Shown in pieces: positions 10,617 through 34,986 of a DNA stretch of 37,375 nt. The position numbers and the translations under genes are program-made. Every line of letters begins with the position of its first letter. Position 1 is the first letter of the stretch. Under the pieces are notes generated by a model. That model saw only the letters and a program-made list of their open reading frames with translations, was not told where the DNA came from and did no database searches. Where the stretch lies: NCBI GenBank assembly GCA_020853795.1, contig JADYYF010000137.1:1-37375 (forward strand), in the 5' to 3' direction. This DNA comes from Candidatus Zixiibacteriota bacterium. GTDB lineage: Bacteria; Zixibacteria; MSB-5A5; CAIYYT01.

Positions 10617-12782
10617 ATGAAGAAACTGGAGACACGGATAGCAGCGGAGGTCGCAGCCCTTGGCACCCGACCGCTTAAGATTCGCGAACTGGCCAAGAAG
10701 ATGCAGATACCGGCTGCGGAGTACGTCGAGTTCCGGCGCACGGTCAAGGGAATGATGAAGTCAGGCAAGCTCAATCGCCAGCGCGGCGGGCGAGTCGGCG
10801 GGCAGCGCAAGGCCGAGGCTACAGTGGTGGGCCGGTTGAGCGTCACGAAATCGGGGCGGGCGTTTGTTCAGCCCGAGGGCGACAAGGAAGAAATCGTGAT
10901 TGAGGAATGGGGGCTGGGGACGGCGCTGCACGGGGACCAGGTTGAAGTGCGGATGCTTCCCGCCGCCAAACGCGCGCGCCCGGCCGGTGAAATTGTCAAG
11001 GTATTGGAGCGGGCGACGACCGAGGTGGTCGGCAAGTTTTATCAGAGCCGATTCCACACCTTCGTGCTGCCGGACGATCCACGGCTGAAGATTGAGATCC
11101 GGGTAGAGCCACCAAAGGGGACACCATTGCGCGACGGCACGAAGGTGGTCGTGCATCTGGAGGAATGGACGAACGAGCGCGACATCCCGCGCGGCAAGAT
11201 TCTGCACGTGCTGGGCTTGCCGGGGGAGAAGGATGTCGATGTCCTCTCGACGATTTACAAGTTCAAGCTGCCGACGGCGTTTCCGGCAGCGGTGATGAGC
11301 GAGGCGGCGGTGATTGCCGAAGAGATTCCGGCGGAGGAAATTGCGCGGCGGCTCGATTTGCGCAAGACGACGACGTTTACGATTGATCCGGAGGACGCCA
11401 AGGATCACGATGACGCGGTCTCGGTCGAGCGCTTGGGGGAGGGTTACCGGTTGGGCGTGCACATCGCCGACGTCAGCCAATACGTCGAAAGCGGCACGAA
11501 ACTCGACAAGGAGGCGCGCGGGCGAACGGCCTCGGCGTACCTGGTGGATCGGGTGTTGCCGATGCTGCCGGAGAAGTTGTCGAACAATCTCTGTTCGTTG
11601 AAAGAGAAGCTGGACCGGCTCGCGATGTCGGTGCTGATCGATCTGGATGTCGCCGGGAACGTGAAGAAGTATAAGATTCACGAGAGTGTGATTCGCTCGT
11701 GCGCCAAGCTCAGCTACGAGCAGGTGCAGGAGACGTTGGACGGCGGCGCGGGCCTAGACAAGCAGAAGCGGGTCGTGCAGGCGATTCGAGTCATGCACGA
11801 GTTAGCGCTGAAGCTAATCGACCGCCGGCGCCGGCAGGGATCGATTGATTTCGATCTGCCGGAGTACAAGGTTTTCCTCGACGACTACGGCATCGTGACG
11901 AAGATCGTTAAGCGCGAGCGCAAGATGAGCCACCGGATCATCGAGGAATTCATGCTGCTGGCGAACCGGCTGGTAGCGCAGGAGATGCTGGGGCGTACGG
12001 TGCCGGCGCTATATCGGGTGCATCCACCGCCGGATGAGGAGAAGCTGGCGAATTTCGTGGAATTCGCGCGCAGTTTCGGCCATCGCGCATCGTTCGGATC
12101 GCCGCCGCAGCCGAAACATATCGCGGAGTTCATCGAGTCGATCGAAGGACGGCCGGAGGCGGACCTGCTCAACGAACTGCTGGTGCGCTCGATGCAGAAG
12201 GCGACGTATCAGACGGAGAACATCGGCCATTTCGGGCTGGCGTTCCCGCACTACCTGCATTTCACGTCGCCGATTCGCCGCTACCCGGACTTGATTGTTC
12301 ATCGCACGCTGAAGGAGGTGCTGCGCGGGACGTTCAAGAAGTCGAAGGCGGGGGGATTGAAGGCGGCGCTGGATCGGATCGGCGAACATTGCTCGCAGCA
12401 GGAAATCGTGATTATGGAGGCGGAGCGCGAGACGATCGCGATCAAGCAGGCGGAATTCTTGTCGCGGCAGTTGGGCGAGGTGTTCAACGGCGTGATCAGC
12501 GGGATGCTGAGCTTCGGATTCTTCGTGCGGTTGCTGGATATCGGCGCGGAGGGGATGGTGCGGCTGGCGACGTTGGAGGATGATTATTATCACGTTGAAC
12601 TGGAGCGGCATGAGATCATCGGCAAGCGCACGCAACGTCGGATGCGGCTGGGGGACAAGGTGCAAGTGCAGGTGATCAATGTGGCGGTCGAATCGGGGCA
12701 GATCGATTTCCGGCTGATCCAGGATCAAGCCAAGCCACGGTTACAGGCGTATTCGTATCGCAACCGGAGACGTTGGCGGTGA
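10617..12782 (+). CDS. rnr: Ribonuclease R (RNase II/VacB family 3'-5' exoribonuclease)
   Basis: Degrades structured RNA processively. About 721 residues, in family range. The N-terminus is a winged-helix-like segment (RPLKIRELAKKMQIPAAEY). Next come cold-shock domains (VVGRLSVTKSGRAFVQPEGD), then the RNB catalytic domain from about residue 240, with the metal-binding acidic cluster TIDPEDAKDHDDAVSV and GVHIADVSQYV, and the C-terminal S1 domain (GVISGMLSFGFFVRLLDIGAEG). The highly basic long tail of the E. coli enzyme is short here (PRLQAYSYRNRRRWR). Upstream in-frame starts exist at TTG 10575 and ATG 10596, the latter after GGGGGG; ATG 10617 is preferred because it begins at the family-like N-terminus and sits at the correct distance from a possible promoter. 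Its stop overlaps the following gene by 4 nt (GTGA). Confidence 0.93.
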   Translation: MKKLETRIAAEVAALGTRPLKIRELAKKMQIPAAEYVEFRRTVKGMMKSGKLNRQRGGRVGGQRKAEATVVGRLSVTKSGRAFVQPEGDKEEIVIEEWGLGTALHGDQVEVRMLPAAKRARPAGEIVKVLERATTEVVGKFYQSRFHTFVLPDDPRLKIEIRVEPPKGTPLRDGTKVVVHLEEWTNERDIPRGKILHVLGLPGEKDVDVLSTIYKFKLPTAFPAAVMSEAAVIAEEIPAEEIARRLDLRKTTTFTIDPEDAKDHDDAVSVERLGEGYRLGVHIADVSQYVESGTKLDKEARGRTASAYLVDRVLPMLPEKLSNNLCSLKEKLDRLAMSVLIDLDVAGNVKKYKIHESVIRSCAKLSYEQVQETLDGGAGLDKQKRVVQAIRVMHELALKLIDRRRRQGSIDFDLPEYKVFLDDYGIVTKIVKRERKMSHRIIEEFMLLANRLVAQEMLGRTVPALYRVHPPPDEEKLANFVEFARSFGHRASFGSPPQPKHIAEFIESIEGRPEADLLNELLVRSMQKATYQTENIGHFGLAFPHYLHFTSPIRRYPDLIVHRTLKEVLRGTFKKSKAGGLKAALDRIGEHCSQQEIVIMEAERETIAIKQAEFLSRQLGEVFNGVISGMLSFGFFVRLLDIGAEGMVRLATLEDDYYHVELERHEIIGKRTQRRMRLGDKVQVQVINVAVESGQIDFRLIQDQAKPRLQAYSYRNRRRWR

Positions 12783-14206
12783 GCGCAAACTATGCGCTGT
12801 TGGCGGTTCGGGGCGACCGCGTGTTCGAGGAGGCGCTGCGATCCCTGCGCGTCGAGGGTTTGACGGTCAGTTGGGCCGAGTCGGTGCAACAGGCGATGGC
12901 GGCGCTGGGCAAGGAGGCGCCGCGTTTTGTCGTGCTTGATGCCGACGCGCTCGGAGCCGAGACGATACCGTTCATGCGGCGGTTGCAGCGGCTGGCGCCG
13001 CTGACGGATATTCTGTTGTTGGCGCGCGACGGCAAGTTTGATGAGCCGGCGCCCGACAGTTTGATCGACAAGACGTTGCCGCTGGAGGAAATCCGGGAAT
13101 TGCTGACGGAGGCGCTCGCGGTACGACGGCTTCTGGACGAAGCGGGGATGTTTGGACATTCACCGAATTTGCGCGAGGCGGCGCGGCGGATTCAGCAGGT
13201 GGCGCCGACCGATATTTCGGTGCTGGTGACCGGGCCGTCGGGCAGCGGCAAGGAGCTGATTGCGCGGGCGATTCACAATAACTCGCCGCGCGCCGACCGC
13301 GAGTATATCTCGCTGAATTGCGCTTCGATTCCCGAGGCACTGCTCGAATCTGAGTTGTTCGGTTACGAGAAGGGGGCATTTACCGGCGCGGATCGAACGC
13401 AGCCGGGTTTGTTGCAGCAGGCGCACGGGGGAACGTTGTTTCTCGACGAGATCGGGGAAATGCATCCGCGCCTGCAGGCGAAATTGCTGCGGGCGATCGA
13501 CACCAAGACGTTTATGGCGGTCGGAGGGCGCAAGACGACAGCGGTGGACGTGCGTTTCATCGCCGCGACCAATCGCGACCTGCAGTCGGAGGTCGAGGCG
13601 GGGAATTTCCGGGCGGACTTGTACTACCGCCTGAGCGTGATCACGATCCAGATGCAGCGGCTATCGGAGCGGCCGGAGGATATTCTGCCGATTATCGCGC
13701 ACAATCTGGGCCGGCTCAAGAGCAACATCCGGTTCAGTCCGGAGGCGACCGAGTTGCTGCTGCGGTATTCGTGGCCGGGGAATGTGCGGGAGTTGACCAA
13801 TTTTCTGCAGCGGCTGTTGGTGACGAATCCGTCCGGTGAGGTGAGCCGCGAGACGGTGGCCTCGCTGCTGGACAAACATCGATTGGACGATCGCAGCCTG
13901 CCGGTCGTCACGAATCTGACGGCGGAGGAGTCGGGTTACCGGCTGATTTATCAGGCGCTGTTGAATCTGGCCAACGAAGTGATTGACTTAAAGCGCTTGA
14001 TTCACGAGCGTTTGGGTGGAGCGGTGCCGGCGCAACCGCAGGCGGTTCACACCGAGCAGTCGGGCGGAGATTTGGAAGCGATGGAAGAGCAACTGATTCG
14101 GGAGACGTTGCAGCGGGTCGGGGGAAATCGCAAGAAGGCGGCGACGATACTGGGGATCGGCGAGCGGACATTGTACCGCAAGCTGCGGAAGTTCAATCTT
14201 ATGTAA
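12779..14206 (+). CDS. Sigma-54-dependent response regulator (NtrC-like)
   Basis: An enhancer-binding transcription activator of about 475 residues. N-terminal receiver-like domain: probable phospho-acceptor Asp in VVLDADAL (residue 54 from this start) and conserved Lys in LIDKTLPLEE, but the usual acidic pair near the N-terminus reads VRGDR, so the Mg site is partly degenerate. The central AAA+ ATPase is complete: GPSGSGKELIARAIH (Walker A), FGYEKGAFTGADR with the sigma-54 contact GAFTGA, and GGTLFLDEIGEM (Walker B). The C-terminus is a Fis-type helix-turn-helix (GGNRKKAATILGIGERTLYR). GTG 12779 overlaps the rnr stop; TTG 12773 is possible. No histidine kinase is nearby. It is followed 3 nt later by a predicted outer-membrane protein gene, which it may control along with the next block. 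Confidence 0.9.
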   Translation: MSANYALLAVRGDRVFEEALRSLRVEGLTVSWAESVQQAMAALGKEAPRFVVLDADALGAETIPFMRRLQRLAPLTDILLLARDGKFDEPAPDSLIDKTLPLEEIRELLTEALAVRRLLDEAGMFGHSPNLREAARRIQQVAPTDISVLVTGPSGSGKELIARAIHNNSPRADREYISLNCASIPEALLESELFGYEKGAFTGADRTQPGLLQQAHGGTLFLDEIGEMHPRLQAKLLRAIDTKTFMAVGGRKTTAVDVRFIAATNRDLQSEVEAGNFRADLYYRLSVITIQMQRLSERPEDILPIIAHNLGRLKSNIRFSPEATELLLRYSWPGNVRELTNFLQRLLVTNPSGEVSRETVASLLDKHRLDDRSLPVVTNLTAEESGYRLIYQALLNLANEVIDLKRLIHERLGGAVPAQPQAVHTEQSGGDLEAMEEQLIRETLQRVGGNRKKAATILGIGERTLYRKLRKFNLM

Positions 14207-14209
14207 ATC

Positions 14210-15823
14210 ATGACTCATAACATAGCAAAGTGGGTGGTGGCTGCGCTGGCGATCGTGTGGCTGCCGATAACATCGAGTGCTTTGCCGATTTTCTTCACTG
14301 ATCAGATCTTCAAGTCGATCGAGCAGTTGGACGAAGCACTGGCGGCGGGGGAGATCTCGGAAGAGGACTACGAGTTGGTGCGGGAGGCACTGTTGGGGGA
14401 AAACTGGCTGATCGATGGGAATCAGCTTCCGCCGGAGACGGCCGACCATGCCGAGGGGTTTGCGCCGAAGAATTTCGTGGCCGGCAGCACGAAGTCGGTG
14501 TGGTCGTATCGCTCCACGCACACGATCAGCGAGCTTCACAGCCGGATCGACCGAATGAGTTTCAGAGATTCCAGCTGGTATCTTGACGTTGAAGTGGAAC
14601 GGACGCGGACGGGTGATTGGCGGATGCGGAAGCGTTCGTTCGGTTACCATTGGGGCCGAGTGGCCGGGGTCGGTCTTGGCGATGTCGATCTTTGGAGTTG
14701 GGGAATTCTGACGGTAGGCAATCGCAGCGCACCGGCGGCGTTGCGGCAGATAGGCGACTTTGGTTCAAGCTGGTTGTTTCCGAGCCTGACCCGGCAAAAC
14801 GGTATCGGCGGGTGGTTTCAGAATGGCCGCGTTGGTCGCAACTTGCGGCTTCAGGGCTATTCCTCGCACGTGGAGGGGAATCGGCATTTCCGCACCAGCC
14901 ACGCGCTGGCGATTGAGATGAGGTTGAGGGCAGACCAATATGGCTTAACGGTGCTGCACCAGTCGATCGGTGAGCTGGGGCGAACGCCGCGGCGGGCGGT
15001 GTTTCTGGCGCCGCAGTTCAAGAAGGAGCTGGAGTATTTCACTCTCTACGGCGAATCGTCTTTGATGACGGATGGGGGCGCGGCGCATCAGTATCAGCTT
15101 GAAGTCCGACGCGGCGGGAGCCGGCTCGACATAGTGGCCTTCGCCTACGGCCGCAATTATCGCAATGTCGAGTCGGGCGGGTACGCTTACGGCGATTACG
15201 GTACGACGGAGATTTCCGAGATCGACTTCGAGTATTCCGACAAGCGCACCGGTCGGCGCGGCGTAGCGGTGGAGGTGGAACACCGTCCGAGTCGCGAGGT
15301 GACCTGGCGGAGCGAATTGATACGCTGGCGGAACAGCCTGGTGGGGCGCGAGGGCGTGGCGGTGCGGGTTGTGTGGATGCGCAGCGGCCGCACCCGGACG
15401 TCACTGGTGCGGATGTTGCGGCTGCAGGGATTGTGGGAGGACCTCGATCTGGCGGCAAGCGCGGCAGATTCGCGGCAGTGGTTGACGGCGACGACGGAAT
15501 TGCGGCTGTCGGAACGCCTGCGGAGCGAGTCATTGGTGCGCATCGGCCGGCGCACTTTGAGTGCAAGGGAACGGGCAGAGTGGCGCGCGCGGAATGAGAT
15601 CGAGGCCAAGGTGGCGGAGAAGTTTCGCCTGGCAGCGGCGGCCGACTGGCGCGACAGCGACTGGGGCAGAGGCGGTGATGAGAAGCTGCTGTTGGCGATC
15701 AGCGAGCGCTATGTCGACAGCGCCTTCAGTGGGATCTCGCTGGTGGTGCAAACGCGGTATTACCCGGAGCGCGGCAAGCTTGACGATTGGGAGGTTCGGC
15801 TCGACACGAAGCTTGAATTTTAG
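14210..15823 (+). CDS. Predicted outer-membrane beta-barrel protein, function unknown
   Basis: Not recognised as a named family. Residues about 1-24 form a signal peptide ending SSA before LPIFF. Residues 30-65 (IEQLDEALAAGEISEEDYEL) are a short helical segment reminiscent of the helix-hairpin leader found before barrels in FCB outer-membrane proteins. From about 95 to the end the chain alternates polar and hydrophobic residues in short strands rich in Arg, Tyr and Trp, with a Gly-Asp-x5-Trp-Gly stretch (VGLGDVDLWSWGILTVGNR) and a final Phe, both typical of outer-membrane barrels. It starts 3 nt after the sigma-54 activator stop and is likely in one transcript with it and RNase R. A role as transporter or secretion pore is only inference. 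Confidence 0.65.
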   Translation: MTHNIAKWVVAALAIVWLPITSSALPIFFTDQIFKSIEQLDEALAAGEISEEDYELVREALLGENWLIDGNQLPPETADHAEGFAPKNFVAGSTKSVWSYRSTHTISELHSRIDRMSFRDSSWYLDVEVERTRTGDWRMRKRSFGYHWGRVAGVGLGDVDLWSWGILTVGNRSAPAALRQIGDFGSSWLFPSLTRQNGIGGWFQNGRVGRNLRLQGYSSHVEGNRHFRTSHALAIEMRLRADQYGLTVLHQSIGELGRTPRRAVFLAPQFKKELEYFTLYGESSLMTDGGAAHQYQLEVRRGGSRLDIVAFAYGRNYRNVESGGYAYGDYGTTEISEIDFEYSDKRTGRRGVAVEVEHRPSREVTWRSELIRWRNSLVGREGVAVRVVWMRSGRTRTSLVRMLRLQGLWEDLDLAASAADSRQWLTATTELRLSERLRSESLVRIGRRTLSARERAEWRARNEIEAKVAEKFRLAAAADWRDSDWGRGGDEKLLLAISERYVDSAFSGISLVVQTRYYPERGKLDDWEVRLDTKLEF

Positions 15824-15860
15824 AAGCCGGGCATTCCAATCAGTTGACTGAAGATTACGA

Positions 15861-15889
15861 TTGACACCGGCGGTCCAATGCACTAACAT
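15861..15889 (+). promoter_or_regulatory. Sigma-70-type promoter of the LTD / PorV-like / dGTPase block
   Basis: Perfect -35 TTGACA (15861-15866), 17 nt, and TAACAT (15884-15889) matching four of six -10 positions including the conserved ones. Predicted transcription start near 15896, leaving a leader of about 50 nt. A tiny ORF of eight codons (ATG 15909) lies in that leader and may be chance. Confidence 0.68.
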
Positions 15890-15944
15890 GGAGCGACTTG
15901 ACCACTACATGAGGTCGCAAAAGTCTTTGGGCTGAGAAGCAAAG

Positions 15945-18900
15945 GTGTGCAGTATTCTTCGGTATTGCAGAGTATTCGGGCTCGGTGTGATTGTAGCGCT
16001 GCAATTGGCGGTGTCGGCAGCGGCATCGAGCCGGCTGGTGATCAATGAGATCATGATCAACGAGCCGGGCTCGGAGACGGCGCTGGAATGGATCGAGCTG
16101 TTCAACGTGTCGAGTTTGCCGGTGAGTCTGGTCGATTTCGCGCTGATCGACGGCGTGGACACTTCGCGGTTTGCGGCGGTTACGATCGAGTCTGAGGGTT
16201 TTGTCGTGCTGTCGCGCAAGCCGGTGGCGGCCGACAGCGGGGCGAGTTTTGAATCGCAGTGGGGAAACAGCTCCGGTGTCTGGGGCGATACTCCGGAAGA
16301 GGACTTCCCGGTGGTCGCGGCGAAGTTCTCGCTGCGCAACGCCGGTGATACGATCTGCATCATTGACAAGGCGAGCGGCGTGGTTGAGCGGGTGGGGTGG
16401 CGATCATCGCCGCCGGACGGGGTTTCGCTGGAGCGGATCAACTGGGCGATTTCGGCGCGCAGCAGCAATTTTGGTTTGTGCAAGGACAGCACGGGATCAA
16501 CGCCGGGGCGGGTGAATTCGATAATCGCGCCGGAGATCAATCTGGGACTGGTTCCGGATAGTCTCGAGCTCGAGGTGCCGCCGACCGCTGATACGCCGGT
16601 GTTGTTGCGATTGGCGGTTGTCAATACGGGACGACGCTCGCACTCAGGGCGGATCGTGGTCTATTTAGATACCGGGCGCGACGGAACAATTGACAGCGGC
16701 GATTCGCTGATTAATCTGGAATTGCCGTCCTTGGCGCCCGATTCGGAGGCGGCGCTGTCGATCGAGATCGCGGCTGCGCGCGGACGCAATCTGTTGGCAT
16801 TGACGCTCGATGCGGACGGCGATTCGACTGACAATCGAGCCGAATTCCGCCTCTACCTCGACGCGACGTACCGTGAAGCGTGCATCAATGAGTTTCTACC
16901 AAAGGCAACCGAAGAAGGGGGCGGCGAGTGGATCGAGGTGGTTAATCGCACCGACTACAATCTGCCACTGCGGGGCTGGATCATTGAAAACGACGGCAAG
17001 GTTGATTCGGTCAGGACTGATGCGGAGTTGGCGCCGGGGGCATTTGCATTGATCTGCGGCGACAGCGCGGCGGTGCGGCGGAGCTTTCCGGAGGCCACGT
17101 GCGCGCTGATTGAGATGCAAGAGTGGCCGGGGCTTGATGAAAAGCAGGGGCAGATCGTGATTCGCAATGATTTTGCAGTGATGGCGGACAGCATGGCGTA
17201 CAGCGGCGCAATCGCGGCCGGGCGGAGTTGGGAGCGCGATGGGGATTCGACGAGCGGCGATTTCTTGCGCGACTTCTATGTATCGAGCGCGGCGAATGGC
17301 AGCACGCCCTGCGCCGTAAACTCGGAGCGAGTTTTGCCGCCGGCACGCGACTTGGGGTTTGTGGGCAACAAGATCGGGACAATTCCGGCGCTGGACCAAC
17401 CGAATGAGATCGGGCTGTTGTTGCGAGTGGTCAATCATGGAGTGCTGCCGTCGCCGGAGTCAATCATTGAGGTCTTCGACGATCGCGATCGTGATGACGT
17501 GATCGACGACAGTGAATTGCTGCAGACGCTGATTGTGCCGGTCGTTGGCGTTGGCGATTCGGTCGATGCACCGTGCCATTTGATGCTGCCCTCGGGGCGG
17601 CATTGGCTGCGCGCGCGCCTGAGCGCGGATGAGGATGCGACCAACAACGACGCTGCTGTGGAGTTGACGCTGGGCCGACCGACGCGGGAAGTAGTGATTA
17701 CCGAGTTTCTGGCTGATCCGACCGGGGGACTGGAATCGGAATGGGTCGAGGTACGGAACAACTCCGAATACCCGGTTGTCATCAGTCGCTGGCGGATCGG
17801 CGATGCCGGCGGACAACCGGGACGGTTTGCCGATTGGCTGTTGATGCCGCAAGCGTACCTGGTGCTGGCGCAGGATTCGGCGGGGTTCGCGGATTACTAC
17901 GGCGGCGATTGCGCTGCGGCCGCTGTCGCCAGCTGGAGCAATCTGAACAACGACGGCGATGCGATCAAGCTGCTGGATGAATTCGGGCATCTGGTGGACA
18001 GCGTCGTGCATGCCGTGGCGGCGGGCGAGAACCGCTCGCTGGAGTTGAATGAGCTTGAAGATCGGCCGGGCGTCGCGCGCTGGTTTGTTAGCGAAGACGA
18101 GATGGGTGCGACCCCGTGCCGAACAAATTCCGTGTCGCGGATTCTGCCGGACTTCGACCTCGCCTTCGGCGGCAGCGGTCTGATGTTGGCGCGGGATGCA
18201 GAGTATCCGCTGATGGTTGAGGCGGAAGTGTGGATCCGGAATGTGGGCAGGAGTACGTCGCCGGCGGCGGAATGGAGTCTTTTCAGCGACGAGGTTGCAC
18301 CCGTGAGAACGGTGATTGCGCCGCTGGCGGCGGGCGATTCGCTTCGGCAAGAGGCGGTAATTGAGTTGGCGCCGGGACGACACCGATTGATGGCGATGCT
18401 GTCACCGGACGACAATCCGGCCGGCGATACAGTTACGGCATCGATCACAACCGGGTATCGAACACGAGAGATTCTGATTACCGAGATCATGGCGGAGCCG
18501 CGATCGGGGTCGGCGACGGAGTGGGTGGAAATCCGCAACAACTCCGATGATGCGCTTGATCTGGCGGGATGGAAGCTGGGCGATGCATCGCGGCAATCGA
18601 ACATCGTAGCGCCGGTGGTGCTTTTGCCTGAGACCTATGCCGTGGTCGCCCAGGATACCAGCCTGATGCGTGCAGAGGTTGGGCCCGATTGCCCGCTTCT
18701 GACGACGGAGGTCTGGTGTAGTCTGAACAACAGCGGCGACGAGATCAGGCTGATTGACGAATTTGGGTCGCTCGTCGACAGCGTTGCGTATCGCGGTGTT
18801 GCTGTTACGGGGCAGTCGTACGAGCTTGACGAGATCGGGGGCGGATGGTATCCGGCGACGGCGGCAACGGGGTCGACACCCGGCAAGCCGAACTCGGTGA

Positions 18901-19214
18901 GCGGACCGGTGCAGCATGCCGTGGAGTTGTTATTGCCGAAGCGTGTTTTTGCGCCGAATGAGGGCGAGGCGCTCACTCTGGCGATCAAGTGTCCGCCGGC
19001 GACGCCACTGACGATTGAGGTGTTCGATCTGGCGGGACGGCGTCATTGCGTCATTGCGGAGGCGCGGCCGTTCTCATCAGGCGAGTACTGCTACGACGGA
19101 GCTTCCGAGTACTGCGGTCGTCTCCCGGTTGGGGCTTACATTCTCAAGTTAGCCGCAGACGACGGGAGCGGCTTTGAGATGAAAGCGGGGTTTGCGGTTG
19201 CGGCGGGTCATTAG
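15945..19214 (+). CDS. Giant secreted protein with alternating lamin-tail (LTD) and CARDB-like domains
   Basis: A 1089-residue secreted protein. A signal peptide spans about 1-28 (LGVIVALQLAVSAAASS). Domain order, read from repeated motifs: LTD about 30-190 (RLVINEIMINEPGSETALEW), CARDB-like about 193-307, LTD 308-463 (ACINEFLPKATEEGGGEWIE), CARDB-like 466-578, LTD 580-733 (VVITEFLADPTGGLESEWVE), CARDB-like 735-838, LTD 840-985 (ILITEIMAEPRSGSATEWVE), and a final beta-rich domain 990-1089 (TIEVFDLAGRRH, then LPVGAYILKL) like a FlgD/type IX C-terminal domain. Lamin-tail domains occur in extracellular nucleases and surface proteins; here no nuclease domain is seen. The start is GTG 15945, with GAGAAG upstream. 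Adhesion, matrix or wall attachment are possible roles. Confidence 0.85.
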   Translation: MCSILRYCRVFGLGVIVALQLAVSAAASSRLVINEIMINEPGSETALEWIELFNVSSLPVSLVDFALIDGVDTSRFAAVTIESEGFVVLSRKPVAADSGASFESQWGNSSGVWGDTPEEDFPVVAAKFSLRNAGDTICIIDKASGVVERVGWRSSPPDGVSLERINWAISARSSNFGLCKDSTGSTPGRVNSIIAPEINLGLVPDSLELEVPPTADTPVLLRLAVVNTGRRSHSGRIVVYLDTGRDGTIDSGDSLINLELPSLAPDSEAALSIEIAAARGRNLLALTLDADGDSTDNRAEFRLYLDATYREACINEFLPKATEEGGGEWIEVVNRTDYNLPLRGWIIENDGKVDSVRTDAELAPGAFALICGDSAAVRRSFPEATCALIEMQEWPGLDEKQGQIVIRNDFAVMADSMAYSGAIAAGRSWERDGDSTSGDFLRDFYVSSAANGSTPCAVNSERVLPPARDLGFVGNKIGTIPALDQPNEIGLLLRVVNHGVLPSPESIIEVFDDRDRDDVIDDSELLQTLIVPVVGVGDSVDAPCHLMLPSGRHWLRARLSADEDATNNDAAVELTLGRPTREVVITEFLADPTGGLESEWVEVRNNSEYPVVISRWRIGDAGGQPGRFADWLLMPQAYLVLAQDSAGFADYYGGDCAAAAVASWSNLNNDGDAIKLLDEFGHLVDSVVHAVAAGENRSLELNELEDRPGVARWFVSEDEMGATPCRTNSVSRILPDFDLAFGGSGLMLARDAEYPLMVEAEVWIRNVGRSTSPAAEWSLFSDEVAPVRTVIAPLAAGDSLRQEAVIELAPGRHRLMAMLSPDDNPAGDTVTASITTGYRTREILITEIMAEPRSGSATEWVEIRNNSDDALDLAGWKLGDASRQSNIVAPVVLLPETYAVVAQDTSLMRAEVGPDCPLLTTEVWCSLNNSGDEIRLIDEFGSLVDSVAYRGVAVTGQSYELDEIGGGWYPATAATGSTPGKPNSVSGPVQHAVELLLPKRVFAPNEGEALTLAIKCPPATPLTIEVFDLAGRRHCVIAEARPFSSGEYCYDGASEYCGRLPVGAYILKLAADDGSGFEMKAGFAVAAGH

Positions 19215-20019
19215 CATTGGCGCGGTGTTACTGCTGCTGGCTTCCGCAGTGAGTTCGTCGGCGGCCGCGCAGCAAATGGACGGGTCGTTGCGATCGCAGG
19301 CGCTCGCTGGTGCAATTGACCTGATGTGCTTTTCGCCACTTGATGTTCAGCGCAACCCGGCGTTGCGCGGCGAGCGGCGCTGGGCGGTCGCGGTGGATTG
19401 GACGCGCCTGTACGGCATGGGCGATTTCGAATTGGCCACCGGCGGAGGTAGTTACGGCAACGGGAGCTGGAGTTTGAGCTTCGTGGTGCAGCAGTTGGCG
19501 GGTGGCGATTATTTTTGGGAGCGCAGCTACCTGGCGGCGCTGTCGCGGCGAATTGCCAAGGAGCTTGCTGTCGGCGTAGGGTTCAACTACCTCGATCTGC
19601 AGTTTGGCGAGGGTTATCGTCGGCTCAATGCGATGGCGGTATCGGCGGGGATTCGGTATCAGGTGCGATCGGGGCGGGTCGTTGCGTTCGCGTGGCGGAA
19701 TCTGAACCGACCGCGGTATGAGAACGGGCTTGATCCAATCGGGCGCGAAGCCGACCTGTCGGTGACGTGGCAATTGAGTCCGCTGATTGCCGTGTGCCTG
19801 AATCAATGCCTGATTGAGAGTCTACCGGATCGTTTCTCGGCCGGGCAGGTATTTCGACTGGCGCCGGAGTTATCGCTGCAGATGGGGATTGTCACGGCGC
19901 CGACCGATTTTGCCGGCGGGATTTCGCTGAAGCTGGCGGGAATTGAGTTTGAGTATGCCTATCGGAATTCCCTATATTTGGGCGGCACACACTTTGTGGG
20001 GGTGCTGTATGTGCGATAG
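19192..20019 (+). CDS. PorV/PorQ-like outer-membrane barrel (tentative)
   Basis: A 275-residue predicted outer-membrane barrel. A positively charged signal peptide (MRLRRVISIGAVLLLLASAV) is followed by RSQALAGAIDLMCFSPLDVQRNPALRG, which resembles the Gly-Gly-Ala ... Asn-Pro-Ala N-terminal signature of FadL-fold PorV/PorQ-type proteins of the type IX pathway; the rest is short amphipathic strands to a C-terminal VGVLYVR. The start is TTG 19192, 23 nt inside the LTD gene; later starts would cut off the signal peptide, and this overlap implies coupled translation. With the preceding secreted protein it could form a secretion or attachment pair. Family is inferred from pattern, not search. Confidence 0.55.
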   Translation: MRLRRVISIGAVLLLLASAVSSSAAAQQMDGSLRSQALAGAIDLMCFSPLDVQRNPALRGERRWAVAVDWTRLYGMGDFELATGGGSYGNGSWSLSFVVQQLAGGDYFWERSYLAALSRRIAKELAVGVGFNYLDLQFGEGYRRLNAMAVSAGIRYQVRSGRVVAFAWRNLNRPRYENGLDPIGREADLSVTWQLSPLIAVCLNQCLIESLPDRFSAGQVFRLAPELSLQMGIVTAPTDFAGGISLKLAGIEFEYAYRNSLYLGGTHFVGVLYVR

Positions 20020-20021
20020 GT

Positions 20022-21194
20022 ATGCAGTATTTGGTCACGCGACAGTTTCTCGAAGAGCAGGAAGAGCGGACGTTAGCGCCGTACGCGGCCCACAGCGCGC
20101 GTTCGCGCGGCCGGCAACATCCGGAGCCGGAGCACGGTTATCGCACCTGTTTTCAGCGCGACCGCGACCGGGTGATTCATTCGGCTGGATTTCGCCGGTT
20201 GAAGCACAAGACGCAGGTATTTGCCTCCCCCAATGACGATCATTTCCGCACGCGCCTGACCCACACGATGGAGGTCGCGCAGATTTCGCGGACGATAGCC
20301 CGCGCGCTGCGATTGAACGAAGACCTCGCCGAGACGGTGGCGTTGGTGCACGATCTCGGGCACACGCCATTCGGCCATGCGGGTGAGGATGCGTTGCGGC
20401 AGCTGCTTAAAGACGAAGGCGGATTTAATCACAACGCCCAGTCTCTGCGGGTGGTGGATTTCATCGAGGACCGCTACCCCAATTTCCGCGGCCTCAATCT
20501 GACATTTGAGGTGCGTGAGGGGATCGTCAAGCATGAGACCGACTACGATATGCCGGTGGTCGGCGATTTCGATCCGCAGTTGCGGCCGACGCTGGAGGGG
20601 CAGATCGTCAATTTTGCCGACGAGATCGCCTACAACGCGCATGATGTGGACGACGGCTTTTTCTCGGCAATTCTGGCGGATGAGGAAATGCGCCAGGTAC
20701 CGGTGATATCCCGCCTGCTCGAGCAGTCGTTACAAGCCTACCCCGATCTGCCGCGGCGCAAACGCCATTACCATTTGATCCGGCTGCTGATCAACTGGGG
20801 GGTGTCGGATATCATCAACAACACCGCCCGACGGCTGGAAGAAGCCCGGATTGAGACGTTTGCCGATGTGGTCAACTGCCGCGAGAACCTGGTGGCGTTT
20901 TCGAGCGATGCGGCCGCCGAGGCCAGGGAACTGAAGACGTTTCTCTTCAGCCGGCTGTACCGCGACCCGCGGCTGGTCGAGATCAACCAGATTGCGATTC
21001 GCATCGTCACCCAGTTGTTCGAGGCCTATCTGGCCCAGCCGGAGCTGCTGCCGGAGAAGTTCCGCAAGCGGCTTTACGACCAGCCGATCCGCATGGTCGT
21101 GAAGGACTACATCGCGGGAATGACCGACCGGTTTGCCTGGCAGGAGCACACGCGGCTGATCGGCGGCGTGCGTCCCGAGCAACTTGCTATCTGA
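20022..21194 (+). CDS. dgt: Deoxyguanosinetriphosphate triphosphohydrolase-like protein (dGTPase, HD superfamily)
   Basis: Hydrolyses dGTP (and often other dNTPs) to the nucleoside and triphosphate, tuning dNTP pools. Length 390. The HD metal site is complete: His81 (RLTHTMEVAQISRTIAR), His110-Asp111 (VHDLGHTPFGHAGEDAL), and a later Asp in FADEIAYNAHDVDD. The N-terminal YRTCFQRDRDRVIHSAGFRR and KHKTQVF are standard for the family. ATG 20022 lies 3 nt after the PorV-like stop, giving it no room for its own promoter, so it is transcribed with the surface-protein genes; that pairing has no obvious functional reason. Confidence 0.95.
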   Translation: MQYLVTRQFLEEQEERTLAPYAAHSARSRGRQHPEPEHGYRTCFQRDRDRVIHSAGFRRLKHKTQVFASPNDDHFRTRLTHTMEVAQISRTIARALRLNEDLAETVALVHDLGHTPFGHAGEDALRQLLKDEGGFNHNAQSLRVVDFIEDRYPNFRGLNLTFEVREGIVKHETDYDMPVVGDFDPQLRPTLEGQIVNFADEIAYNAHDVDDGFFSAILADEEMRQVPVISRLLEQSLQAYPDLPRRKRHYHLIRLLINWGVSDIINNTARRLEEARIETFADVVNCRENLVAFSSDAAAEARELKTFLFSRLYRDPRLVEINQIAIRIVTQLFEAYLAQPELLPEKFRKRLYDQPIRMVVKDYIAGMTDRFAWQEHTRLIGGVRPEQLAI

Positions 21195-28439: not shown

Positions 28440-31400
28440 ATGAATTTATTGACTTGTGATCCGTTGAGACAGTTTCTCTTGCACATACTTGCGATCCTTG
28501 CCATTGTCGCCGCCGGACTGGGGCTGGGCATAGAAGTTGCCGAAGCCGCTCCGGGGGTGAGCATTGCGCTGAAGTTACCTCCCAACAATCTGACGAAGAT
28601 CGAGCCGCGGGCGCCGGAAATCGGGTTTTCGAATTCGGCCGAGCCGCGCGGGCTGTTTGATTCCAATTACCTCAAGCGCTCGATTACCTTCAACTACGAA
28701 GACTACAGCGCCCTGCTGGTTTTCAATCAGAGTATAGGCCGCTTCGGCGGGTTCTCGGTCCCAATCGCGGCCGAGCCGAATGCGTTGCGCGACCGCATGA
28801 TTGAGATCAATACGCGACGGGTGTTCCAGGAATCGGTGAAGAGTTCGCAGATGCGCCGCACGCAGCAGGGCGGCGGCGGTTTGCTGGAATTCGACATTCC
28901 AATCCGCACGCCGAAGGCGATCAAGTCGATCATCGGCGAGGGCGGCGCCGGGCTCAAGGTCAATGGCTACTACAAGATTTCGTTTGCCGGGCGCAGCCAG
29001 TGGCAGGACGGCGAGCGCGTGACGGCAGGGCAGAGCAAATTTCCGTCGTTGCAGATGGAACAGATCTCCAACTTCAATATCTCCGGCACGATCGGGTCGA
29101 AGATTTTCGTGGACGTCAATCAGGACTCCAAGCGGCAGGAGACGTTTGCCAATCGCATCCAGTTGCGCTACAAGGGGGAAGAAGACGACGTCATCAAGAC
29201 CATCGAGTTGGGCAACACCAACCTGGCGTTGCCGTCGACCCGGTTTATCGGATATTCGCAGCGAATTCAGGGCTTGTTCGGGATCAAGACGACGGCCGAA
29301 TTGGGAGGGTTGCGGCTGACAACGATCATGTCGCAGGAAAAGTCCTCGAACAAGTCGGCCGAATTCAAGGCGGGCGCGGAAGCTTCCAACCGCGTGATCC
29401 GAGACTGGAACTACATCGATAATCAGTACTTTGATCTGACGCGCCGGGACACGCTGGGCCTGTCGTTCGCCGATCTTCAGCCGGGGGACAGTATCACCAA
29501 GTGGGAAGTTTACCAGTCGTTTTCGAGTTACCAGGACAGCAAGATTCCCAAGAAGACTGCCAGTGTTTACGTCGACCCGTACAACCCGAACAAGTATCGC
29601 GAGGAGTTCACCGGCGGCACGTTTATTTCTTACGGCGCCGACCGCCAGATCAGCGACCAGACGCAGTACATCCTGGTTCATCCGACGGAGCACTACATCC
29701 TCTTCGACCAGCCGGTGCGCGATATCGCGATCGGGATCTACATGGAGTACCGGCGACGCCTGAACGACGGGCGGGATACGATTATCTCGGTCGGCGATCT
29801 GGGCAGTTCCGACAACGACACGCTGATCACACTGAAGTTGCTTAAGCATAACAATCCCCAGCCGCAATTTGTCAGTTGGAAATATGTCTGGCGCAACGTG
29901 TACGACGTCGGCCGGGTAGACAATCCCGACGATTTCTATGTGCATGTATACAAGGGCAACGCCACCGATGCCACGCAGCGCGAGGAGTCGGACCTGGACA
30001 ACCAACAGGGAGTTAGCTACATCAACCTGCTCGGGATTGACAACAACAACGACGGGCAGGTGGACGGCTACAATCAACAGATATTGGACCGTGCGCGCGG
30101 TCATCTTCGCTTCCCGAATCGCCGGCCGTTTGACAGCGACGTGTTGTCCGAGCGGGTGCCGGAAGCCTACGATGCGGCTCCGAACAACACCGACCGCACC
30201 AACAAGTCGAAGTACTACTTGCTGGTGACCTCGAAGACGCGGCAGAAGCAGTTCTCGCTCGGGCACTTCGATATCGTACCGGAGTCGGAGTCGGTCACGC
30301 TCAATGGCCGCACGCTCAAGAAGGATGTCGATTACCAGATCACCTACGAATCGGGGCAGATCACCTTCCTCAACGATGAGGCGCTGAGCGCGGCCGCGGA
30401 TGTCAAGATCGACTACGAATACGCGCCGCTGATCTCCTCGGAAAAGAAGACCCTGCTGGGCGCGCGGGCAGAATACGACGTGATGCAGAATTTCAAGATC
30501 GGCGCGACGGCGCTGTACAAGTCGGAGAAAGAGACCGACCGCAAGCCGAAGCTGGGTGAGGAGCAGGCGACGTTTGTGAACCTGGATGTCGATGCGTCGT
30601 ATACGTTCGAGACGGAGACTCCGACCAAGCTGATCAATCTGTTGCCGTTCATCGACTCGAAGACGTCGTCGCGCGTGATGATTGCCGGCGAAATCGGGCA
30701 GTCGATGCCGAATCCGAATATCAAGGGCGAGGCCTCGATTGACGATTTCGAGGGTTCCAAAGAACGTTACGGGCTGGGCGTGGTGCGGGTCGGGTGGGGA
30801 CCGGCCACGATTCCGGCGCAGATCGACACCAATTTCGCCTCGCGGGGCAAGCTGATTTGGTACAACCCGTACGATCAGATTCCGATCACGGAGGTCTACG
30901 AACGGGATGTGCGTGCGGGAGAGAACCGGACCAACATTCTGGTGATGCGGTTCATGCCGCAGGCGTCCGGCAGCCGGGAGAAGAGCGCGTCGTTTGCGGG
31001 GATCATGCGGCCGCTGGCCAAGAGCGCGTACAACCAGGAGAAGACGCGATTCATCGAAATCCGCATGCGCGGCGAAGTCGGGACGCTCCACATCGACATT
31101 GGCGAAATCAGCGAAGACCTCAACGGCAACGGTCAATTGGACGCCGAAGTGACCGACAAGGAGTTCGTCAACGAGGCGGAGGACAAGGGGCTGGACAAGC
31201 TGTCGGATGCCGAGGAGTGCGCCTTGTGCGCGGCGGGGACGGCGCCGGCGTGGTACAACTGTCCCGCCGAAGGGGCGAGTTGTGTCGATCCGGCCGGAGA
31301 CAATTGGGCTTACAGTTCCTCCGATCGCGACAACTACGACCGCATCAACGGCACGGAGGGCAATCGCGGCGATCTGTCGCGACTGAACCGTCCCGACACC

Positions 31401-34400
31401 GAGGACTTGAATGCCGACGGCCGGGTGATCACCGACAACAGCAATGCCTATTACTCCTATGCGATTGATTTGGCCGACAATCCGTTCCGGGTCGAGGGGA
31501 CGACCAACAAATTCGGTTGGTACACCGTCCGGATACCGTTCCAGGACACGTCGCTGGTCGACGTGACGGTCGGCAATGCCAGCAAGGCGAACATACAGTC
31601 GGTGCGACTGTGGTTGAACGGCGTCACCCGGGACACCGCTTTTGTCGAAATCGCCGAAATCGAGTTGACGCGCAATTCCTGGGAAGCGCAGCCGCTGCTG
31701 CCGCTGAATCGTGGACGGCTGGACGACACGCGGTTTGAGGTGTCGGTTGCGAATACCGAGGAGGATACAGTCTACGTCTCGCCGCCGGGGGTGGAAGGAT
31801 TCTACGACAAGACTACCGGCCTGCGGGAGCGCGAACAATCGCTGCGGTTTGACTTTGTCAACTTCGCTCCGGGCGACACCGGTTTTGCCGAGAAGATCCC
31901 GTTCAAGTCGCAGGACTTAAGCGGCTACAAGAGGCTGGAGATGTGGATTCACGGCGATCAAAACCGCGACAACATGCTCTTCTTCTTCCGTTTCGGCCCG
32001 GACGAGCGCAATTATTACGAATACAAGACGGTGGTCAAGGAGGGTTGGGACCGGGATGCGGCCGTCAATATTCCCTTCGACGAGATCACGCAGGTCAAAC
32101 TGAAGCTGCTTGATCTGAAGCAGGAATTTCCCGACACCAACGAGTACTCCGAGGGCAAGTATCGCATTTTCGGCAACCCGTCGATCACGCGGATCAAGTA
32201 TTACGCGCTCGGCATCACCAGCACGGACTCGCTGGCGGCGCCGGAGCGCCTGACCGGCAACGTCTGGATCGACGAATTGCGGGCGACCGAGGTGCGGCGC
32301 GACCAGGGGATTGCGGCCTACCTGTCGGGGTCGATGTCGTTCGGCGACGTGGCGTCGGTGGCCGTCAACTATACCAAGACGGACGAGTTCTTCCGCACCC
32401 TGACCCAGGCCGACCGGCGCGATCTGGGATCGGGCAGTCAGAACGTGGCCTACGGCTACTCCTTCAGCTTCAACGTCGACAAGTTCTTCCCGCCGGCGGA
32501 AAATGTGCAGATTCCGTTCAGCTTCAACTGGTCGCGCACCGAGCTGTCGCCGCGACTGATCACCGGTTCCGATATTCTCGTGCCGACGGATCGGCTGGAG
32601 AGCGAGAAGAGCGTGAATACGAACTACGGCTTCTCGATCAGCGAACGCTGGAACAAGCGCACCGGGAACCCGCTGTATACGGTGCTGCTGAACAAGTTCC
32701 AGGGGAGTTTGTCGTACACCAAGCTGACCTCGCGGACACCGACGGTACCGGTGAGCGACAACGAGGGCTACACGGCGAAAGGACGTTACAGCACCGGGAT
32801 CGGGATCAAGGGTGGGATCGGAATCTTCTCGTGGCTGCGGGGATTTCCCCTGGTGCCGGGGCGCGTGGTGGCGACGCAATTCAATCCGCTGCCGAACCGG
32901 CTCGCTTTTGACGGCGAAGTCAACCGCCGGACGGAGAACCGCACCAACAGCTTCGGCGTGCAGACCAATCGCTACACGCGGACGCTGCGCGGTAATTTCG
33001 ACACCGGCGCCAACCCGATCACCGGCGTCGAAGTCGGCTATCGCTTCTCCACCGACCGCGACATCAGCAATCCGGATTACGTCAAGTTTTCGTTCAATCC
33101 GAAGGACATTATCCTGGGTCAGGAGCGCCGTTACTCCGAGGCGGTGACGATCAACTACTCGCCGAACGTGCTGCCGTTTATCACCGGCACCAAACTGGGG
33201 TTCACGTCGTCGCACGATGAGAACTTCGACCAGACGAGTTCGACGAACACCATTTCGGATCTGCGACGGATCAACAATTCGCGCTCCTTCAGCGCCGGCG
33301 CGACGCTCAACTTGCAGAAGCTGCTGGGGCAGAACACCGGCGGCGCGCCGCAGCGGGGACGAGTGACGCCGCCCAAGCCGAAGCCGAGCGGATTGGATTC
33401 GTTGCGTCGCGGCGCCGCGGCCGATACGACGAAGGGTAAGCCGCCGGTGGTGTCGCAGCCGAAGGTGCCGGGCACGCCGGTATACATGTACCCCTTACGA
33501 TTCGTGCGGTTATTTACCGACCAGATCGATCCGGTGGCGACGACGTTCAAGTGGGACGAGCGGATTTCGCTGGACGGTTTTGTCGAGCGGCCGAGTTGGA
33601 AATATCGCTTCGGCTTTTCCAGCGATCCGGACGCCGAGCGGCGCAGTGGTACGATCGGCACGGGGCAGTTGGATGCCTACACGCGTACGCGCGGGTACAC
33701 GGCGCGTTCCGGGGTGCGGCTGCCGCTGGGGATGGCGGTCGGCGTGGGCTGGTCGTATTCGATCGCGGACGGGACGGGCCGCCAGACGCGCGACAAAGGC
33801 ACGGTTTGGCCCGACCTGACCTTCCGCTTCGGCAAGCTGGACTTCCTCCTGTTCCCGAAGCTGTTCGCGCGCTCGTTCACGCTCGATTCGAAGTTCTCGC
33901 GCAAGGACAACTTGTCGGAGAACGTCGCGACCGGTTTCAAGCGGAACCAGACGATTGCCGACGACTGGTCGCCGCTGCTGTCGGCGGGAATTGAGTGGAA
34001 GTTCGCGCAGGGCTTGCGTTCGACGGTGAGCTACACGACGAGCAAGGCGAAGAAGCTGCAGTTCCGCGACGGTGCGACGCAGGACGGCGGGTTATCGACC
34101 GACACGCGCGACTTCTCGTCCGGGGTGTCGGTGCGCACGTCCTACTCCTTCCGCGGCGGTTCGAATCTGTGGTTGCCGCTGTTCGGGCGGATGAAAATTC
34201 AGTCGACGTTGACGCTAGATCTTGACGTCAGCAAACGCAACACCCGGACGGAGAATCAGAGTCCGAACTACACGAATGCGGACAAGACAACGTCCGACCG
34301 CAGCGAGTTGACGATCCAGCCGTCGGCGAGCTACAATTTCTCGACCAATATCAAGGGCGGTTTGACGGCGCGCTGGACCGACACCAACGATGCCCGGGCC

Positions 34401-34451
34401 GGCAACCGCCACGTGCGCGAGCTGCAGTTCTGGGTGGAGATCCGATTCTAA
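28440..34451 (+). CDS. sprA: SprA-family giant outer-membrane protein (type IX secretion translocon type)
   Basis: 2003 residues. In Bacteroidota SprA is the very large (36-strand) barrel that moves proteins through the outer membrane in type IX secretion and gliding. Signal peptide about 8-38 (LLHILAILAIVAAGLGLGIE). Family-typical stretches seen: GGGGLLEFDIPI, SGTIGSKIFVDVNQDSKRQ, VKIDYEYAP, IDDFEGSKERYGLG, RVGWGPATIP, NGTEGNRGDLSRL and TEDLNADGRV, ANIQSVRLWL, and a long C-terminal strand-rich region to ELQFWVEIRF. A four-cysteine cluster at residues 927-948 (C-x2-C-x10-C-x6-C) looks like an insertion, and the mature protein has no other Cys by my reading. ATG 28440 lacks a good SD; GGAGG is 26 nt upstream. 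It lies directly between murB and a ComEA-like gene. Function in secretion is inferred from family. Confidence 0.9.
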   Translation: MNLLTCDPLRQFLLHILAILAIVAAGLGLGIEVAEAAPGVSIALKLPPNNLTKIEPRAPEIGFSNSAEPRGLFDSNYLKRSITFNYEDYSALLVFNQSIGRFGGFSVPIAAEPNALRDRMIEINTRRVFQESVKSSQMRRTQQGGGGLLEFDIPIRTPKAIKSIIGEGGAGLKVNGYYKISFAGRSQWQDGERVTAGQSKFPSLQMEQISNFNISGTIGSKIFVDVNQDSKRQETFANRIQLRYKGEEDDVIKTIELGNTNLALPSTRFIGYSQRIQGLFGIKTTAELGGLRLTTIMSQEKSSNKSAEFKAGAEASNRVIRDWNYIDNQYFDLTRRDTLGLSFADLQPGDSITKWEVYQSFSSYQDSKIPKKTASVYVDPYNPNKYREEFTGGTFISYGADRQISDQTQYILVHPTEHYILFDQPVRDIAIGIYMEYRRRLNDGRDTIISVGDLGSSDNDTLITLKLLKHNNPQPQFVSWKYVWRNVYDVGRVDNPDDFYVHVYKGNATDATQREESDLDNQQGVSYINLLGIDNNNDGQVDGYNQQILDRARGHLRFPNRRPFDSDVLSERVPEAYDAAPNNTDRTNKSKYYLLVTSKTRQKQFSLGHFDIVPESESVTLNGRTLKKDVDYQITYESGQITFLNDEALSAAADVKIDYEYAPLISSEKKTLLGARAEYDVMQNFKIGATALYKSEKETDRKPKLGEEQATFVNLDVDASYTFETETPTKLINLLPFIDSKTSSRVMIAGEIGQSMPNPNIKGEASIDDFEGSKERYGLGVVRVGWGPATIPAQIDTNFASRGKLIWYNPYDQIPITEVYERDVRAGENRTNILVMRFMPQASGSREKSASFAGIMRPLAKSAYNQEKTRFIEIRMRGEVGTLHIDIGEISEDLNGNGQLDAEVTDKEFVNEAEDKGLDKLSDAEECALCAAGTAPAWYNCPAEGASCVDPAGDNWAYSSSDRDNYDRINGTEGNRGDLSRLNRPDTEDLNADGRVITDNSNAYYSYAIDLADNPFRVEGTTNKFGWYTVRIPFQDTSLVDVTVGNASKANIQSVRLWLNGVTRDTAFVEIAEIELTRNSWEAQPLLPLNRGRLDDTRFEVSVANTEEDTVYVSPPGVEGFYDKTTGLREREQSLRFDFVNFAPGDTGFAEKIPFKSQDLSGYKRLEMWIHGDQNRDNMLFFFRFGPDERNYYEYKTVVKEGWDRDAAVNIPFDEITQVKLKLLDLKQEFPDTNEYSEGKYRIFGNPSITRIKYYALGITSTDSLAAPERLTGNVWIDELRATEVRRDQGIAAYLSGSMSFGDVASVAVNYTKTDEFFRTLTQADRRDLGSGSQNVAYGYSFSFNVDKFFPPAENVQIPFSFNWSRTELSPRLITGSDILVPTDRLESEKSVNTNYGFSISERWNKRTGNPLYTVLLNKFQGSLSYTKLTSRTPTVPVSDNEGYTAKGRYSTGIGIKGGIGIFSWLRGFPLVPGRVVATQFNPLPNRLAFDGEVNRRTENRTNSFGVQTNRYTRTLRGNFDTGANPITGVEVGYRFSTDRDISNPDYVKFSFNPKDIILGQERRYSEAVTINYSPNVLPFITGTKLGFTSSHDENFDQTSSTNTISDLRRINNSRSFSAGATLNLQKLLGQNTGGAPQRGRVTPPKPKPSGLDSLRRGAAADTTKGKPPVVSQPKVPGTPVYMYPLRFVRLFTDQIDPVATTFKWDERISLDGFVERPSWKYRFGFSSDPDAERRSGTIGTGQLDAYTRTRGYTARSGVRLPLGMAVGVGWSYSIADGTGRQTRDKGTVWPDLTFRFGKLDFLLFPKLFARSFTLDSKFSRKDNLSENVATGFKRNQTIADDWSPLLSAGIEWKFAQGLRSTVSYTTSKAKKLQFRDGATQDGGLSTDTRDFSSGVSVRTSYSFRGGSNLWLPLFGRMKIQSTLTLDLDVSKRNTRTENQSPNYTNADKTTSDRSELTIQPSASYNFSTNIKGGLTARWTDTNDARAGNRHVRELQFWVEIRF

Positions 34452-34883
34452 ATGCTCGGGTCGATCAAAGAGGTGTTTGCCTTTACGCGCGGCGAGACGA
34501 TCGCGCTGTGCGTGTTGCTGGCCATCACGCTGATCGGAGGCGGGCTGGTGATTTACGACCACTCGCGGCAGAGCCTGCCGCCGCGGTTGATTTTCGAGGC
34601 GCTGGAGACCGAGCCAGCCAAGGTGACCGAGACGGCGCCGAGCATGCCGGAGCACAAGCCGCAGACCGTGGCGCTGCCGACGCGGCCGCTGCGGCTAAAC
34701 CTCAATACCGCGCCGGCGGAGAGTCTGCAACTGCTGCCGCTGGTCGGCGCGACGCTAAGCCGCCGCATCGTCGAGTATCGCACCCAGCATGGACCGTTTG
34801 CCTCCGTCGACCAACTGGTGGCGGTCAACGGCATCGGCAAGAAGAACCTGGAGAAGCTGCGTCCGTACCTGATCTGCGAATAG
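34452..34883 (+). CDS. ComEA-like helix-hairpin-helix DNA-binding protein
   Basis: 143 residues. One transmembrane helix at about 14-36 ([20 protein letters not shown]), a periplasmic linker rich in Pro and Glu, then a tandem helix-hairpin-helix domain at about 82-141: [20 protein letters not shown] and [12 protein letters not shown], the classic ComEA pattern (Leu-Asn-x-Ala). This family binds incoming DNA in natural transformation; some members act in other envelope roles. ATG 34452 immediately follows the SprA stop, so the two are very likely one transcript. Confidence 0.85.
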
Positions 34884-34920: not shown

Positions 34921-34949
34921 TTGAAAATCGCCGCCGACTGTGCTACTTT
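34921..34949 (+). promoter_or_regulatory. Sigma-70-type promoter of the lpxC-fabZ operon
   Basis: TTGAAA (34921-34926; five of six), 17 nt, TACTTT (34944-34949; T1, A2, T6), with an AT-rich stretch just upstream (CTATATTTCAG). Predicted start near 34956, giving a leader of about 31 nt with GGAGGA before the ATG. Confidence 0.6.
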
Positions 34950-34986
34950 GCGCGACTATTACGGCAGTAGCGGAGGAGAGCAGCGA

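Follow-up and report, generated by a model that had tools for sequence, protein, structure and literature searches.

Three consecutive genes in the analysed window (the whole 37,375-nucleotide stretch of a Candidatus Zixiibacteriota contig) appear to form a conserved type IX-type cargo module, and this reading is considered reasonably probable. The candidate cargo is a secreted protein with lamin-tail (LTD) domains, which would have its own carrier and anchor and would probably be displayed beside a large outer-membrane barrel. The initial annotation had proposed a linked substrate with a private carrier. That proposal is supported at the level of sequence, where genes for proteins with a type IX-like C-terminal domain (CTD) and PorV-family genes recur as pairs genome-wide.

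The gene content and order were computed directly, and the genes named in this paragraph lie on the forward strand. The first gene (P0001, 14210..15823) encodes a large outer-membrane barrel of 537 aa and starts 3 bp past the end of the gene for a sigma-54 activator (12773..14206). The second (P0002, 15945..19214) has a GTG start and encodes the LTD protein, a probable cargo of 1089 aa with a putative signal peptide, four lamin-tail domains and the CTD (18912..19211). The third (P0003, 19192..20019) encodes a PorV/PorQ-type barrel of 275 aa, which is the probable dedicated carrier and anchor. Its TTG start lies inside the P0002 gene and the overlap with the end of P0002 is 23 nt. The ORFs, starts and overlap are as initially described for three consecutive envelope genes. 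A dGTP triphosphohydrolase gene (20022..21194) follows and is a frequent downstream neighbour outside the unit.

The sigma-54 activator is likewise a frequent upstream neighbour outside the unit. It adjoins the trio in many relatives, and at its N-terminus it has a receiver-like region with a weak match to the receiver family. It was considered as a member of the trio and rejected because it is missing at the two loci where the trio has moved (L047 and L199). The activator had been placed directly before the barrel, which is correct, but a tie between it and the unit does not hold. A sigma-54 promoter check of the trio gave no -24/-12 site above chance.

The trio is widely conserved. The small barrel was found by BLAST in 57 of 78 relatives, and its profile matches proteins in 113 of 117 genomes; in most of these a single strong match is accompanied by weaker matches to other proteins of PorV type. 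The large-barrel profile has matches in 115 of 132 genomes of the phylum, almost always in single copy, and in 72 of the 78 good-quality genomes. Gene order was compared at 41 loci (40 relative loci from 38 genomes and the window). The genes for the large barrel, LTD protein and small barrel stand next to one another in that order in 31 of them, as the initial annotation would predict. Most of the other ten loci either lie at contig ends or belong to a paralogous module. Contig ends account for L034, L039 and L189, masked bases break the ORF in L036, and a recognised barrel or CTD partner is missing next to the carrier in L038, L196 and L200. The remaining three (L190-L192) are a paralogous module of one family (f4). 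Conservation of the order in relatives indicates that these genes are not a chance run of ORFs. The usual order is RNase R, sigma-54 activator, trio and dGTPase. At L047 and L199 the trio is found at other genomic sites with the three genes still together; therefore, the trio itself is the unit.

The small barrel is predicted by AlphaFold2 to have 14 strands (pLDDT 90). A fold search of the PDB gave solved matches that include FadL (TMq up to 0.68) and OmpG, and PorV itself is absent among the best 50 matches. Pfam gave nothing above cut-off for either P0001 or P0003, and searches of the PDB by sequence gave no convincing match for either barrel family. P0003 alone scores 12 bits against the PorV_fam model NF033709, for which the curated cut-off is 90 bits. 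The best score of its relatives is 75 bits (E 7e-21) against PorV_fam and 45 bits (E 6.5e-12) against PorQ, both under the curated cut-offs. Some relatives lean to PorQ, in families such as that of L188. The initial description of a PorV/PorQ-like barrel thus fits the predicted fold and the family-level scores. Matches to the PorP/SprF family (TIGR03519) are weak and limited to 4 of 19 small-barrel homologues (best 8.5e-5), and on these profile scores the P0003 family does not appear to be a PorP/SprF-type carrier.

P0003 was also considered as the PorQ or PorV of its own genome. This was rejected since the genes on contigs C73 and C91 fit PorQ and PorV, respectively, far better. A tree separates 39 P0003-type proteins, of which 36 come from trio loci and three from the paralogous module, from ten other PorV-type proteins of the genome at one supported branch (97/87). 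This split, together with the separate C77/C91 and C73 genes, indicates that the trio carrier is an extra lineage that is neither the housekeeping PorV nor PorQ.

P0002 begins with a typical hydrophobic stretch and an AxA site, which by eye resembles a Sec-type signal peptide. Pfam identifies its four LTD domains with an E value of 2.6e-53, in agreement with the 1089-residue secreted repeat protein first described. The number of LTD domains per homologue varies from one to five across trio loci. The CTD has about 100 residues. The CTD in the window is below curated cut-offs (13.5 bits for TIGR04183, cut-off 23), and the homologues were scanned singly. TIGR04183 is matched by 15 of 17, weakly (best 2e-5), FlgD_ig by 12, CHU_C (type IX; type B-related) by eight and Por_Secre_tail by five. 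A profile of the trio CTD has 46 matches in the genome, in ORFs of widely differing length, which is the pattern expected of a sorting domain, and further matches in relatives. These results place the trio CTD, by sequence, in the type IX/FlgD-Ig superfamily, in line with the resemblance first noted, and it appears to be more than an ordinary Ig-like fold. The trio CTD scores 110 bits against its own profile, which was built from sequences that include it, and the other CTDs score at most 48 bits; the trio CTD is therefore regarded as a distinct subtype. A lysine near the C-terminus is present in at least 90% of family members, including the copy in the window. In translocon structures of F. 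johnsoniae a near-invariant lysine close to the CTD C-terminus contacts PorV (PMC10994853). From its position, we infer that the lysine of the trio CTD may be equivalent. The literature search found no paper that connects type IX secretion with lamin tail domains or with Zixibacteria.

The pairing of CTD and PorV-type genes is seen beyond the trio. Six of the nine PorV_fam genes above cut-off in the genome adjoin a CTD gene; in one of these six cases a tandem PorV gene lies between the two. Among four complete relatives at least 8 of 45 PorV_fam genes immediately follow a CTD gene, where 0.12 are expected and random placement, which ignores operon structure, gave a maximum of 3 in 2000 placements. 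Distances among the trio CTDs correlate with those among the trio carriers (partial r 0.36 with two neighbouring genes controlled; 1 of 1000 permutations), which gives modest support for co-divergence of the two at the sequence level. In two of the six sets of the genome, on contigs C5 (L178) and C48 (L175), a TonB-dependent receptor, a CTD protein and a PorV-family gene follow one another. The order of barrel, cargo and carrier there is as in the trio, with a different large barrel. On contig C170 (L180) a CTD protein that has CARDB domains is immediately followed by a fusion of a PorV-family barrel with a long C-terminal region.

The genome also encodes type IX machinery. Profile searches found SprA, PorU-like, PorV-like and PorQ-like genes. 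The SprA translocon gene (28440..34451, forward strand; TIGR04189, 625 bits) is the likely export pore and lies 8.4 kb downstream of the small-barrel gene. The initial annotation had noted a SprA-type gene about 9 kb away. Its presence stands, but its nearness is not conserved in relatives. Nearness was rejected as evidence since SprA is far from the trio in the complete genomes G020 and G060 and close only at L047. SprA itself is present in 74 of 78 genomes of the class. Directly 3' of SprA is a small helix-hairpin-helix (HhH; ComEA-like) protein (34452-34883), followed by an apparent LpxC-FabZ fusion as judged by eye (34921-36381). The PorQ-like gene on C73 scores 187 bits, and both it and the PorV-like gene on C91 are below the equivalog cut-offs (NF033711, NF033710). 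A C25 peptidase (PorU-like, PF01364) adjoins a PorV-like gene split over contigs C77 and C91. At these loci (L184, L174) the peptidase carries a CTD, and the PorV-like gene, which is broken by contig ends, has a large insertion and is followed by a CTD protein that matches M6 peptidase and FG-GAP weakly. The insertion is also present in G019, G020, G060 and G081 (ORFs of 868-920 aa). GldM (TIGR03517) gave no match, and the control genomes gave no match either.

P0001 has a signal-peptide-like start. A short, conserved segment of two helices comes next, at about residues 37-63, with a consensus around EExLxEALxxGEIxxxExLxLLE, and the rest is predicted to form about 24-26 strands (pLDDT 71). Profile searches and a PDB sequence search matched its family to no known sequence family. 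Usher-like fold matches (FimD/PapC) have a TM of about 0.5 and 6-11% identity, and they reflect only the size of a large barrel and not kinship. A ComEA-type HhH barrel was considered as a possible relative. Profile comparison of the two gives a probability of 19-29%, against less than 1% for unrelated controls and 2% or less for the small-barrel family A1, and the trio large-barrel family has no HhH domain match. HhH matches in five genomes were also considered as barrels and rejected, since those inspected are two Tex-like proteins and one peptidase-like protein. The constant linkage of the large barrel to the LTD gene suggests that the two proteins work together, and P0001 is tentatively proposed to be the partner of the LTD protein in the outer membrane, next to which that protein would be displayed.

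The cargo-module reading suggests the following route. The LTD protein would cross the inner membrane by Sec and would be exported through the SprA pore by virtue of its CTD. The 14-strand barrel P0003 would bind the CTD, collect the LTD protein at the pore and then hold it on the surface, as PorQ does with PorZ and SprF with SprB. The LTD protein would probably be displayed beside P0001. In this scheme the gene set, the carrier fold, the CTD family, the SprA and PorU-like genes and the recurring CTD/PorV pairs are computed directly. The steps that we infer are export, binding of the CTD by the carrier, anchoring at the surface and, least securely, the association with the large barrel.

The trio could instead be core envelope machinery, an extra attachment complex that processes or anchors many type IX cargos, with the LTD protein in the role of PorZ, the carrier in that of PorQ and the large barrel as a scaffold. 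The near-universal, single-copy occurrence of the trio, which is about as widespread as SprA, its fixed order beside housekeeping genes and the lean of some carrier relatives (L188) to PorQ would all fit such a role. However, a much better PorQ (C73) and PorV (C91) are already in the genome, a Pfam search found no PorZ-like beta-propeller in P0002, and the variable number of LTD domains is as in a displayed protein, so this role is unlikely. An essential attachment or assembly complex specific to the phylum is also improbable; in it the orphan large barrel, the LTD display protein and a third PorV-type barrel would add a type IX export step that Bacteroidota lack. An ordinary uptake set would consist of a FadL-type small-molecule channel, a porin and a protein with a plain FlgD-like Ig CTD that is exported by a route other than type IX. 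OmpG and FadL are indeed the best solved fold matches of the small barrel, FlgD_ig is matched by most of the scanned CTDs, and several family-level scores are under cut-offs. PorV itself, however, is a FadL-family barrel (PMC9143113), relatives of the small barrel match PorV/PorQ profiles, most CTD members match type IX profiles, CTD/PorV pairs recur and the CTD lysine is conserved; an uptake set is accordingly very doubtful.

Another possibility concerns the purpose of the trio and is compatible with the cargo-module explanation. The LTD protein could bind nucleic acid or nucleotides at the surface and the large barrel, as a distant relative of the HhH barrel, could take them up. The paralogous f4 module (L190, L191, L192) encodes an OB-fold CTD protein, a PorV-like carrier, an HhH barrel of 825-846 aa, a FadL-like protein and a secreted 5'-nucleotidase, and from its sequences looks like a system for surface capture of nucleic acid or nucleotides. 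Together with the faint profile link of its large barrel to that of the trio, it makes the capture of nucleic acid or nutrients a reasonable guess at the purpose of the trio, and no more. The link has the low probability given above, the trio barrel is without an HhH domain match, and the OB-fold match is weak in one f4 member and modest in another. Capture of nucleic acid or nucleotides by the trio is considered unlikely.

The private cargo carriers described in the cited papers are mainly PorP/SprF proteins, which serve type B cargo in Bacteroidota. The pairing here is of PorV/PorQ-type carriers with individual cargos, with several pairs per genome and apparently in another phylum. One such pair, together with an orphan large barrel, makes up a gene set that is retained in single copy across nearly the whole phylum. 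The specificity of carriers, and the use of shared or private carriers, becomes testable by comparison. The trio also suggests that this poorly known lineage has an as yet uncharacterised envelope complex.

Among known systems, the FimD/PapC chaperone-ushers resemble P0001 in having a large barrel of about 24 strands, but P0001 has no chaperone or pilin genes with it. The SprA-PorV translocon with type A cargo (PMC10994853) resembles the genome of the trio, which has a SprA homologue, a PorV-fold carrier and a CTD lysine near the C-terminus. The trio differs in that GldM was not detected (controls equally silent) and in a highly divergent carrier that is apparently paired with one cargo. In the attachment complex of P. 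gingivalis, the PorQ:PorZ and PorV:PorU pairs consist of a CTD surface protein held by a barrel (PMC5562754, PMC8545088). The trio is similar in that a PorV/PorQ-type barrel of its own would keep a CTD surface protein at the outer membrane, but it has LTD domains instead of the PorZ propellers or PorU peptidase and an adjacent large barrel, and its host genome has separate PorQ-like and PorU/PorV-like genes. Cognate shuttles are a precedent for cargo-specific carriers (PMC12618676), and SprF:SprB and PorP:PG1035 pair type B cargo with PorP/SprF carriers (PMC9143113, PMC12618676). As in the trio, the carrier gene is directly downstream of the cargo gene and there are several pairs per genome; however, the trio has a PorV/PorQ-like carrier and a type A/FlgD-like CTD of about 100 residues, and it belongs to another phylum.
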